Shown: positions 18,448-23,990 of the stretch, in pieces | Layout of the letters: each line of letters opens with the position of its first letter | Position numbering within the stretch: the stretch's first letter is position 1 | Assembly (NCBI GenBank): GCA_021777755.1 | Contig: JAJYDE010000026.1 | Location: 1-51,735 of the forward strand | Origin: Deltaproteobacteria bacterium | GTDB taxonomy: Bacteria > Desulfobacterota > Syntrophobacteria > Syntrophobacterales > Syntrophobacteraceae | Reading direction: 5' to 3' | Length of the DNA stretch: 51,735 nt | The notes under the pieces: generated by a model | What the model saw: only the letters and a program-made list of their open reading frames with translations | Databases searched by the model: none | What the model was told of the DNA's origin: nothing | Translations under genes and position numbers: made by a program

Positions 18448-19023
18448 ATGGTCAGCATCAAGGGAACGCGAACGGAACAGAACCTTTTGAAGTCATTCGC
18501 CGGTGAAAGCCAGGCGCGCAATCGTTACACTTACTTTGCGGGGGTTGCAAGAAAGGAAGGCTACGTCCAGATAGCCGACATCTTCGAAGAGACCGCCAAT
18601 CAGGAAAAAGAGCACGCGAAGCGGTTCTTCAAGTTTTTGGAGGGGGGAGAGCTGGAGATTGTGGCCTCTTATCCGGGCGGCAAGATCGCAACGACGGCAG
18701 AAAACCTTCTGGCTTCCGCCAATGGCGAGCACGAAGAGCACGCCGAACTCTATCCCGCCTTTGCGTCCGTGGCAAAAGAGGAAGGCTTTCAAGCGATCGC
18801 CTCCGTTTGGGGTTTCATTTCAGTGGCTGAAAAGCATCACGAAAAACGCTACCGCGATCTGCTGGCAAACATTGAAAAAGGAACGGTTTTCAAGCGCGAC
18901 CGGGAAGTGATCTGGCGTTGCCGCAACTGTGGCTACCTGCACACGGGTAAAGAAGCTCCGGATACTTGTCCAGCCTGCATTCATCCCAGGGCCCATTTCG
19001 AGTTGCTAAGCGAGAACTGGTAG
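18448..19023 (+). CDS. rbr: Rubrerythrin
   Basis: 191 residues, the standard size. The ferritin-like four-helix domain carries the diiron ligand glutamates, among them E20 in GESQARNRY, E53 in NQEKEHAKRF, E97 in the EHEEH motif, and E128 and H131 in SVAEKHHEKRY. The C-terminal rubredoxin-like domain has C158/C161 (CRNCGY) and C174/C177 (CPAC). Rubrerythrin reduces hydrogen peroxide to water using rubredoxin or NADH-linked electrons in the cytoplasm of anaerobes. It is first in a four-gene oxygen-defence operon and is preceded by GGAG (AAAGGAG). Confidence 0.95.
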   Translation: MVSIKGTRTEQNLLKSFAGESQARNRYTYFAGVARKEGYVQIADIFEETANQEKEHAKRFFKFLEGGELEIVASYPGGKIATTAENLLASANGEHEEHAELYPAFASVAKEEGFQAIASVWGFISVAEKHHEKRYRDLLANIEKGTVFKRDREVIWRCRNCGYLHTGKEAPDTCPACIHPRAHFELLSENW

Positions 19024-20587: not shown

Positions 20588-22042
20588 CTACCTGGTCAGA
20601 TTCAGCGTCTGCCTTACCAAATCCTTTTCGTGATCATAGTTTAGGACCCGCTGCAACATGATCTTTTGCGCCATGACCGGGCCCGCGCCATGCCAGGTGG
20701 CAACGCCGTGCTGGCCGGCCGTCCAGTTCTGGAGCAGCTTGTGGACCTTCATGATGTTTTCGGTGGGCTCGGTTGATCCGAAGCTGTAGAATTCCTTCAC
20801 GTAGTCCTTTATTTCCGGATTGTTGAGTTCTTTGAGAGATGGCATGGTGACGATCAGCCCCCCTCCTATGTCTCCGGCCAGGGCCATGACACGCCAGAAC
20901 GCATTGCAGATGTTCAACTTGGCCACGTTGCCCATCAACTCGTCAGGCAGGTAGACCCCCGAACCCGCCGGCTCCTCGGCGCCCTTGTTCGCCGCCGCCA
21001 GCCCGCAGGCCCTCCCCGTTTCTCTTAGCACAACCATTTCCATCAGTTCGTCGTTGATATGGGTGGCTTTTTCGAGTCCCTTGTATTCCTGGATCAGTTT
21101 GGCGGCCCCGATGATCTGGTTCATGAAGCCCACTTTGCACGTTCCCCCGCAGGTCATGCGGTGGGTTTTGGCAAACCGGGTGACGAATTTGACCGAGTAT
21201 TTGTATTCGCCGCAATGAAACACCCGATCCCGGGGAACGAACACGTTATCGAAGATCACAAGGGAGGTTTCCCTCTGGCCAAACCGGGGATTTCCCAGCT
21301 CGGAGAGATCCTGCGCGGCGTCACGTTCGGCCGAATAGGGCGTGTACTGGCAAACGTAGGTTATCCCCTTCGTGTCGGTGGGAACGGCGAAGGCCACCGC
21401 GTAGTCCTCTTCGCCCTCGAAATGGGCGGCCTGGGGCAAAACCACCATTTCATGGCTGGCAAAAGCGCCGCTGATGTTGATCTTGGCGCCCCGAACGAAG
21501 ATGCCGTCCTTGTTTTTGTCCACGATCTTAAGCGACAGGAAAGGGTCGGGCCAGTCGATCGTTCTTTGATTGCGCTTTCCGCGGGGCTCGGTGAGTGCTC
21601 CGGCAACCGCGAGATCGCGGCTCTGAACCATCTTGAGATACTCGATAAAACGAGGGTGGTACTTGGTCCCGAGATCCCGGTCCATCTCCCAGCAGGTTGC
21701 CGCCAGGGCATGAAAGGCATCGTATCCCACACAGCGGTAGATGCAGGTGCCGAGCATTTCGGCCGTGAAGGTTCCAGCCTCGGCCTTTTTCACCAGATCG
21801 TCCGTACTGGCGCTCACATGAGTGTAGCGGTTCACCACTTCGCCGGTAAGAGAAGACCGGCAAGTCATTATATCGCTGTAGCGGGGATCGGTCGCCCATT
21901 CATAGCTGGCCTTGTTAGCCTCCACCACCGTGCGGGTGTTTCTGTTTTCAAGGACGTTTTGAACCTGTTTACCATTCATGAAAACCCTGGGGTGCAGACT
22001 TTTCAGACTTTCTTCGAACTGTTCCGGGGTCATAAGAGCCAT
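20588..22042 (-). CDS. abfD: 4-hydroxybutyryl-CoA dehydratase / vinylacetyl-CoA isomerase-like flavoprotein
   Basis: 484 residues, the family length. It belongs to the 4-hydroxyphenylacetate 3-hydroxylase/AbfD superfamily. AbfD binds FAD and a [4Fe-4S] cluster through C99, C103, H292 and C299. Here MLGTCIYRCVGYD gives C100 and C104, and KTHRMTCGGTCKVG gives H294 with C298 and C302. The His-Cys spacing is thus one residue off the reference, so which Cys is the ligand needs checking. The protein is clearly AbfD-like rather than a monooxygenase. It could dehydrate 4-hydroxybutyryl-CoA or a related CoA thioester in the cytoplasm. It is preceded by tetR on the same strand (27 bases) and has a strong AAGGAG site. 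Confidence 0.82.
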   Translation of the reverse strand: MALMTPEQFEESLKSLHPRVFMNGKQVQNVLENRNTRTVVEANKASYEWATDPRYSDIMTCRSSLTGEVVNRYTHVSASTDDLVKKAEAGTFTAEMLGTCIYRCVGYDAFHALAATCWEMDRDLGTKYHPRFIEYLKMVQSRDLAVAGALTEPRGKRNQRTIDWPDPFLSLKIVDKNKDGIFVRGAKINISGAFASHEMVVLPQAAHFEGEEDYAVAFAVPTDTKGITYVCQYTPYSAERDAAQDLSELGNPRFGQRETSLVIFDNVFVPRDRVFHCGEYKYSVKFVTRFAKTHRMTCGGTCKVGFMNQIIGAAKLIQEYKGLEKATHINDELMEMVVLRETGRACGLAAANKGAEEPAGSGVYLPDELMGNVAKLNICNAFWRVMALAGDIGGGLIVTMPSLKELNNPEIKDYVKEFYSFGSTEPTENIMKVHKLLQNWTAGQHGVATWHGAGPVMAQKIMLQRVLNYDHEKDLVRQTLNLTR

Positions 22043-22069: not shown

Positions 22070-22723
22070 TCAGGTGGAATGCATTTTTGACGTCGGCCAT
22101 ATCGGCTCGGGGCCGGCTGAGCGTGAAACCTCTTCGAGGCCCGGTTTCAGATGATCCAGATATTGGCACAGGGAGTTGATCGTTACGTCCAGGGCGGCCG
22201 TGGATTTGTCCACACCGTAGAGGACCGTCATTCCCAGGATCCCGGCAAAAATCATTCCGCCAACGGCCGAGATGTCGGTTGCTTCGCCCAGTTCCCCCGA
22301 CTGTTTTGCCTGTTCGAGAAGTTTGGCGATCATGTTCTTGAGGCCGTCGAAGCCCCTTTTGACTTCGCCGGCCAATTCGGGGAGTTGGTCATCGAGTTCC
22401 ACCGAAAGAGTTACGAAAATGCAGCCGCCCGGCAAGCAGTTGGTGTCCCTCAAATAGATGTCTCTGAAGTTTAACAGCAACTTTTTGACTTTCCCGACCG
22501 GGCTTTCGATCCGGTCAAGACCCGCCAGGTTGTGCTCCCGCCATATTTCGCGGGCTCGGGCAAGGACGGCGAAATAGAGTTCCTCCTTGCTTTTGAAGTG
22601 GTTGTAAAAGCCTCCCTTGGAGCATCCGGCCGCCGTGGTGACGTCGAGCAGCGAAGTGCTTAGAAAGCCCTTTAGCGAAAAGAGCCTCAAGGCCTCCAGG
22701 ACGATTTTTTCTTTGAGTTTCAT
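22070..22723 (-). CDS. TetR-family transcriptional regulator
   Basis: 217 residues. The N-terminal HTH is typical: IVLEALRLFSLKGFLST then LLDVTTAAGCSKGGFYNHFKSKEELYFAV. The C-terminal ligand domain contains the CLPGGCIFV segment common in TetR regulators of lipid or CoA-thioester metabolism. It precedes the abfD-like gene on the same strand, so it probably represses itself and that gene. A perfect palindrome upstream (22865-22878) is its likely operator, and a CoA ester or free acid its likely inducer. Confidence 0.88.
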   Translation of the reverse strand: MKLKEKIVLEALRLFSLKGFLSTSLLDVTTAAGCSKGGFYNHFKSKEELYFAVLARAREIWREHNLAGLDRIESPVGKVKKLLLNFRDIYLRDTNCLPGGCIFVTLSVELDDQLPELAGEVKRGFDGLKNMIAKLLEQAKQSGELGEATDISAVGGMIFAGILGMTVLYGVDKSTAALDVTINSLCQYLDHLKPGLEEVSRSAGPEPIWPTSKMHST

Positions 22724-22878: not shown

Positions 22879-23522
22879 CTCTATCATGTTTCTATCGAAT
22901 CGCTCTCCCGATGTCAAGAATTGTTTCACAATCGCTCGCCCCCTCCTGCGGAGGGCAACGCTTTTCACTGCGAGTTATTTAATGAATACATGCAGTCAAA
23001 TTCCACGATGTGGCAAGCGCTACAGATTCCCTTTTTTCAATTCGATTCAGGCCCGATATTCGATCGGGTGGTAGAAGAGTTGAAGAAGGCGCCGATGCAG
23101 TTGCCCGATCCAAAATATGTGGTGATAATCACCGTGGATTCGATCTTCGATCAATCCGCGGGTCCCAAAGCGGGTCAACAGATCGTATAGCGCGACTGGA
23201 GCGGGGGGCCATATAGGTCGGGTCAATCCGGCAGGTTTATATGGCGCCCCCCAAGAGGCGATGGACGGAGGGCATCCACCATGTGCCCGCAAATTCGTGG
23301 AATCGCCGGCAGTCCCGTCAAAGACAACACTGCCCGCTTCTCGTCAGGGTAGACAGAGCGAAAGCCAACGTGTCCAAAGGAGGTGGTATTGAGGCGGAAT
23401 GGATATGACGAAGCAGACGGCCCCCCATCGAGGTTCATACAGCGGTAAAAGCCATAATGGGGGTCTGTGGTGATTTTGAGTGCGTCTTTGAAAGAAAAAC
23501 CTGCAACTGGAAGGAAAAACTC
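22879..23522. other. Gene-poor region between tetR operator and OsmC gene
   Basis: No gene I can defend. A plus-strand ORF at 22990-23190 (66 codons, tail KYVVIITVDSIFDQSAGPKAG) has protein-like composition but no ribosome site. A minus-strand stretch (about 23460-23223) reads SFGHVGFRSVYPDE and may be the C-terminal remnant of a formylglycine-generating (SUMF1/FGE)-like protein. An AAGGA at about 23508-23512 serves the OsmC gene. Confidence 0.35.
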
Positions 23523-23990
23523 ATGACAGAAGTAGTCCACACCTCGCGAATCAGTATAGTCAGGGAAAAGGGCCCCACAAGAAGGGCCGTGATAGAAGGC
23601 TTCGGCGAACCGATTTACTACGGCGTCCACGGCGGGATAAAAAACTTCTACAAAGTGGAGCCTGAAAAGGAGCATGCGGCCACTCTGGACCACATAGTGG
23701 CCGCCACGGCGGGCTGAATGATGGGAACACTGGCCGCGTCGCTGGCCGGAAAAAGAATTCGCACCACCGAAGAACTCTATCGGGCCGACGTGGAAGGAGA
23801 CATTGAAAACGTCGACGGCGTCCTGAAGATCACCACTATCCGGGTGGAATACCACCTGAAAGTGAAGGCGGACCAGAAAGAAGCCGCGCGGGAGGCTTTT
23901 TCCTCATATCTTACCCAATGTCCCGCCGCTCAAAGTGTAATCGGCTGCATAAAGTTGCAGGACAAACTTGAACTGGAAGAAGTGGCCTGA
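23523..23990 (+). CDS. OsmC-family selenoprotein (in-frame UGA read as Sec at codon 65)
   Basis: 155 codons with one internal TGA at 23715-23717. ATG 23523 has AAGGA 7-10 bases upstream. Both halves are in the same frame and together make one continuous OsmC-like protein: HAATLDHIVAATAG, then U65, then MMGTLAASLAGKRI. OsmC proteins have a catalytic Cys exactly there, and a second Cys, here C133 in YLTQCPAAQSV. TGA therefore replaces the peroxidatic Cys. A 7-bp hairpin with a 6-nt loop (23730-23749), 19 bases between the UGA and the loop, is a credible bacterial SECIS. OsmC enzymes reduce organic peroxides. OsmC-like selenoproteins have been described in other bacteria; a nonsense mutation is the alternative. 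No selA/B/C gene is in the window. Confidence 0.8.
23730..23749 (+). promoter_or_regulatory. SECIS-like hairpin for Sec insertion
   Basis: CUGGCCG (23730-23736), loop CGUCGC (23737-23742), UGGCCGG (23743-23749). The pairs are C-G, U-G, G-C, G-C, C-G, C-G, G-U. The first two loop bases include a G, and the distance from UGA is in the range used by bacterial SelB. Confidence 0.65.

Follow-up and report, generated by a model that had tools for sequence, protein, structure and literature searches.

A predicted OsmC-superfamily selenoprotein with selenocysteine at the peroxidatic cysteine position, from an apparently new UxxG subfamily

An OsmC-type gene in a draft genome of the Syntrophobacteraceae carries an in-frame TGA, which raises the question of whether this codon is read as selenocysteine (Sec), ends the protein, or marks a decayed or misassembled gene. 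The gene lies in the window, by which we mean the whole stretch of DNA analyzed here (51,735 nucleotides; contig JAJYDE010000026.1, assembly GCA_021777755.1). From sequence comparison, we conclude that it almost certainly encodes a selenoprotein of the OsmC superfamily.

Read-through translation gave MTEVVHTSRISIVREKGPTRRAVIEGFGEPIYYGVHGGIKNFYKVEPEKEHAATLDHIVAATAG-U-MMGTLAASLAGKRIRTTEELYRADVEGDIENVDGVLKITTIRVEYHLKVKADQKEAAREAFSSYLTQCPAAQSVIGCIKLQDKLELEEVA, with both halves in a single frame (MTEVVHTS...AATAG-U-MMGTLAA...QCPAAQS...EEVA); the TGA encodes residue U65, and the terminal stop (23988-23990) is TGA too. The start lines up across aligned relatives (MxEVVHTS), and GGAAGGA is found upstream of it at 23509-23515. 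Pfam OsmC (PF02566) matched the read-through protein across the TGA (E value, 2.6e-9; score, 37.9 bits; cut-off, 27.5), in agreement with the earlier note, which had described one continuous OsmC protein. This match, above the gathering score, and the OsmC fold of the structure model place the protein in the OsmC superfamily. Rfam returned no match at gathering scores within the window, and a codon-signature search for other Sec genes in the window, judged by eye, gave no further convincing pair. Feature coordinates are given in Table 1.

Table 1. Coordinates of the gene and its selenocysteine-related features (positions within the window)
Feature	Position	Strand	Basis or detail
OsmC-type selenoprotein gene (predicted), 155 residues, Sec at 65	23523..23990	+	Read-through translation, Pfam OsmC, relatives' start
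In-frame UGA, read as selenocysteine (predicted) at peroxidatic-Cys position	23715..23717	+	51 homologues, 1ukk alignment
SECIS hairpin (predicted), CUGGCCG-CGUCGC-UGGCCGG	23730..23749	+	Arms 23730-23736 / 23743-23749; loop 23737-23742 (CGUCGC)
Codon of C133, invariant, OsmC/Ohr resolving-Cys position	23919..23921	+	Alignment A1; CP of 1ukk

A scan of GTDB genomes yielded 28 loci; among 97 relatives searched separately, 26 genomes had matches, mostly strong and with one internal TGA each. Syntrophobacterales and other Thermodesulfobacteriota supplied most of the carrier bins. Further records are labeled Bryobacterales, KSB1, Nitrospinaceae, Methylomirabilota, and, in one case, Dehalococcoidales, and part of this bin naming may be in error. 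Among 51 distinct homologous sequences (window included), the codon in the U65 column was TGA in 48, TGC in 2, TGT in 1, and TAA or TAG in none. Bacterial selenoproteins are recognized by an in-frame UGA within an uninterrupted conserved frame and by Cys at the same column in relatives, and this pattern is seen here. A search for close homologues with a normal codon, and for damaged frames, found the UGA shared by 48/51 and the frames intact. Twelve positions are invariant in the 34 aligned members (alignment A1), namely, A22, G34, H36, I39, Y43, T54, D56, U/C65, G68, G92, C133, and P134. Median pairwise dN/dS was 0.14 downstream of the UGA and 0.08 upstream (only pairs with estimable dS), so purifying selection acts on the part of the gene that follows the UGA.

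Two Cys copies (L040 and L042, TGC codon, 68 to 69% identity) belong to the same subfamily and are nested inside the Sec clade of the tree. Assembly fen_1165 holds both the Cys copy L040 (351-806), with a damaged SECIS stem, and a UGA copy, L041 (776-1234). A distant sister branch (34 to 37% identity) includes L096 (301-753), which has UGA and its own hairpin, and L097 (313-738), a Cys homologue (37% identity) with a Cys codon rather than TGA; the genome that carries L097 (G003) has a main-group UGA copy as well.

The predicted SECIS hairpin has 7 pairs and a 6-base loop, with G at loop position 2. The earlier note had placed a 7-bp SECIS-like hairpin, with a G at one of the first two loop positions, 19 bases downstream, which is right for the loop; the stem begins 12 nt after the UGA. 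The published bacterial SECIS model (PMC13188914) comprises a loop of 3 to 9 nt, a stem of 4 to 16 bp, a G at loop position 1 or 2, and a distance of 16 to 37 nt from the UGA, and the hairpin conforms to it. The folding energy of the single window hairpin was ordinary (z about 0, not significant); therefore, the case beyond chance rests on the relatives. There, fourfold-degenerate sites in the hairpin (codons +5 to +11) showed 0.24 bits of variation versus 1.66 elsewhere in the gene. Pairing was found in 98.7% of cells, falling to 3 to 51% when the partner was shifted by one to three bases, and loop position 2 was G in 34/36 sequences. In five sequences the outermost pair is U-A instead of C-G. 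Because variation at most pairs is slight, there is little classical covariation, and the hairpin is better supported by its frozen synonymous sites. Both TGC-bearing copies have the central G-C pair broken by a G-to-T change, and the distant UGA members L045 to L047, L049, and L096 have a hairpin in the same region in a different register.

The source genome (4.2 Mb, 103 contigs, 95.8% complete) was searched for the selenocysteine machinery, as the earlier note had proposed; selA, selB, selC, and selD were all found, so its reading was not refuted. The tRNA-Sec (selC) scored 74 bits and has the anticodon tca. The selD frame (L018, G000:C50, minus strand) was read across an in-frame TGA just ahead of AAKIGPGDL, and SelD of this genome is probably itself a selenoprotein. 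A TusA/YedF-like gene directly precedes selD. Co-occurrence of selA with the OsmC-type gene carries no weight because 91/97 relatives have selA. Three more OsmC-family genes are present in the genome (L065, L066, and L067, on G000 contigs C44, C69, and C50, respectively), none with an internal stop; the one on C50 is about 1.7 kb from selD.

A pseudogene, or a TGA produced by misassembly of a Cys codon, would be in keeping with a draft genome in 103 pieces and with TGC and TGT being one base away from TGA; however, the TGA is common to 48 distinct homologous sequences from many assemblies, selection is purifying downstream, and the hairpin is frozen, so that the relatives refute this explanation and its probability is negligible. 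The UGA might instead be a true stop, with a second protein restarting at the directly following ATG, as the TGAATG at this point and an open downstream frame of 90 codons would allow. Yet none of the 48 sequences has TAA or TAG there, the distant members L045 to L047, L049, and L096 have CTG or CTA for the ATG and retain the UGA, the Cys copies L040 and L042 read straight through, and the split would fall inside the central OsmC helix of the model (residues 55 to 76), which makes two proteins very unlikely. For a variant code in which UGA specifies another residue (Trp or Gly), no supporting point was found, whereas the genome has tRNA-Sec, SelA, SelB, and SelD, the same gene terminates at TGA, and relatives align Cys at this column and not Trp or Gly; we regard this as scarcely credible. 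Insertion of Sec at the UGA is the reading that we retain.

The only solved structure matched by sequence was Thermus OsmC 1ukk (a weak match; E value, 0.46), in which U65 aligned with the Cys of AGC, the peroxidatic Cys (Cp), and C133 aligned with the Cys of CP. With Cys codons at the U65 column in 3/51 sequences and C133 invariant, this alignment favors the assignments made in the earlier note, i.e., a TGA at the catalytic Cys of the family and C133 as the putative resolving Cys (Cr). Cp and Cr of Xylella Ohr are Cys61 and Cys125 (PMC5962072). The two positions of a lipoyl peroxidase, a reactive one (Sec here) and a resolving Cys, are thus represented, as U/C65 and C133 are both invariant. 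A structure model built from alignment A1 had a mean pLDDT of 86, and its top solved matches were OsmC/Ohr proteins (best Z score, 12.6; root mean square deviation [rmsd], 2.5; 125 residues aligned). VIA-align 2 gave Z scores of about 9 to 12.6, mostly at 2 to 4 Å, while raw Foldseek superpositions had a high rmsd (10 to 15 Å). Sec65 is within the long central helix of the model.

The catalytic Glu of Ohr is ten residues before Cp (Glu51 and Cys61; PMC5962072). In the ungapped sequence alignment, the triad Glu was absent from this place, which is taken by Leu55, with the invariant Asp56 one place later; R20, looked at for the catalytic Arg near Cp, is nearly invariant among the 34 aligned members. 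As the Glu place is Leu, substrate and reductant are inferred, and with the Glu out of place and the Arg not assigned, we do not count the protein as an established member of the classical peroxidase subfamily.

By analogy with Ohr/OsmC, the protein most likely acts as a Sec-based, lipoyl-type peroxidase, a reading that we hold with moderate confidence. SelB and tRNA-Sec would decode the UGA at 23715, aided by the hairpin; the Sec65 selenolate would then attack a hydroperoxide or similar electrophile, reducing the substrate, and the resulting selenenic acid would condense with C133 to a selenenylsulfide. Recycling of the Sec65-C133 selenenylsulfide would fall to a dithiol, with a lipoylated protein or thioredoxin the probable candidates. 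A different function for the same selenoprotein, as a thiol, sulfur-transfer, or reductase enzyme that depends on Sec and acts on another substrate, is possible but the more doubtful choice, and it bears on the activity only. Leu at the Glu of the OsmC/Ohr triad (alignment versus PMC5962072) speaks for it, as do two invariant residues with no stated role in Ohr, D56 and H36, the latter within a Gly-rich loop, and the existence of OsmC-superfamily proteins, e.g., YhfA, without known activity (PMC5962072). Against it stand the invariance of both Cp and Cr and the OsmC/Ohr fold. As the triad Glu is missing, this protein offers a way to test whether a Sec enzyme depends on activation by Glu/Arg.

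Neighboring genes were clustered across the window and the 28 loci, and no family recurred beyond five loci, mostly near kin; an operon or pathway link was rejected as evidence, there being no conserved neighbor of the OsmC-type gene. In the window, an HpaB-family gene (20588-22042, minus strand) adjoins a TetR regulator (22070-22723), and HpaB homologues are also close to the OsmC gene in L025 and L030, where they flank it on the opposite side. Upstream of the OsmC gene, at a distance of about 4.5 kb, is a rubrerythrin gene (a peroxide-defense-type protein; 18448-19023, plus strand).

The first OsmC-like selenoproteins became known in 2005, when three sequences with the motif UxxT were described from the Sargasso Sea, with a SECIS hairpin reported behind the UGA (PMC1088965). 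They were found again in the GOS data set, also with UxxT (PMC2398784), and are listed with this motif in recent reviews (PMC9312934, PMC13188914). NCBIfam holds an OsmC-related (seleno)protein family, NF041052 (OsmC_like_Se; cut-off, 95 bits), to which the window protein scored 19.8 bits; only 4 of the 34 subfamily members matched it even at an E value of 0.001. Two NF041052 members with Sec, also from this phylum, have AFULLTQL and GFUMFSQL, with GCY or GCH replacing CP. The window protein shares with NF041052 and the Sargasso/GOS proteins the OsmC fold, Sec at the peroxidatic-Cys position, and a SECIS hairpin; the window group differs in having UMMGT (UxxG), where the Sargasso/GOS group has UxxT, and in keeping CP. 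Given the low NF041052 score, UxxG, and the retained CP, the window group is a different subfamily of the same kind. In the openly accessible papers that we found to treat both OsmC and selenoproteins, we saw no description of a UxxG OsmC subfamily, and this branch, mostly from Thermodesulfobacteriota, is apparently a new subfamily of the known OsmC selenoproteins as judged from its sequences. The earlier note had proposed a member of those selenoproteins with a Sec-based active site, a view that our comparison supports, with peroxidase chemistry plausible. Because this subfamily is missing from the current NCBIfam release, automated pipelines would probably annotate the gene as truncated or in two pieces.

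Independent origins of Sec in the window group and NF041052 are not claimed; the tree separates them, but the branches are very long and false joins were warned of. Tentatively, the group may be a second, separately evolved Sec-OsmC subfamily, in which Sec, His36, and Asp56 would replace Cys-Arg-Glu, the chemistry would differ from that of Ohr, and Sec would have reverted to Cys with decay of the SECIS. If true, this separately evolved subfamily would span Thermodesulfobacteriota and bins named Bryobacterales, KSB1, Nitrospinaceae, and Methylomirabilota. The frozen hairpin, together with its damage in two Cys copies, serves as a clean natural experiment for studying how a SECIS is constrained and how Sec is exchanged for Cys. 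Compared with OsmC/Ohr, the Cys-based lipoyl peroxidases, the window protein has the same fold and the same Cp and Cr positions (here separated by 68 residues) but differs in having Sec for Cys and the triad Glu out of place, and it is only about 10 to 20% identical to the solved OsmC/Ohr structures.
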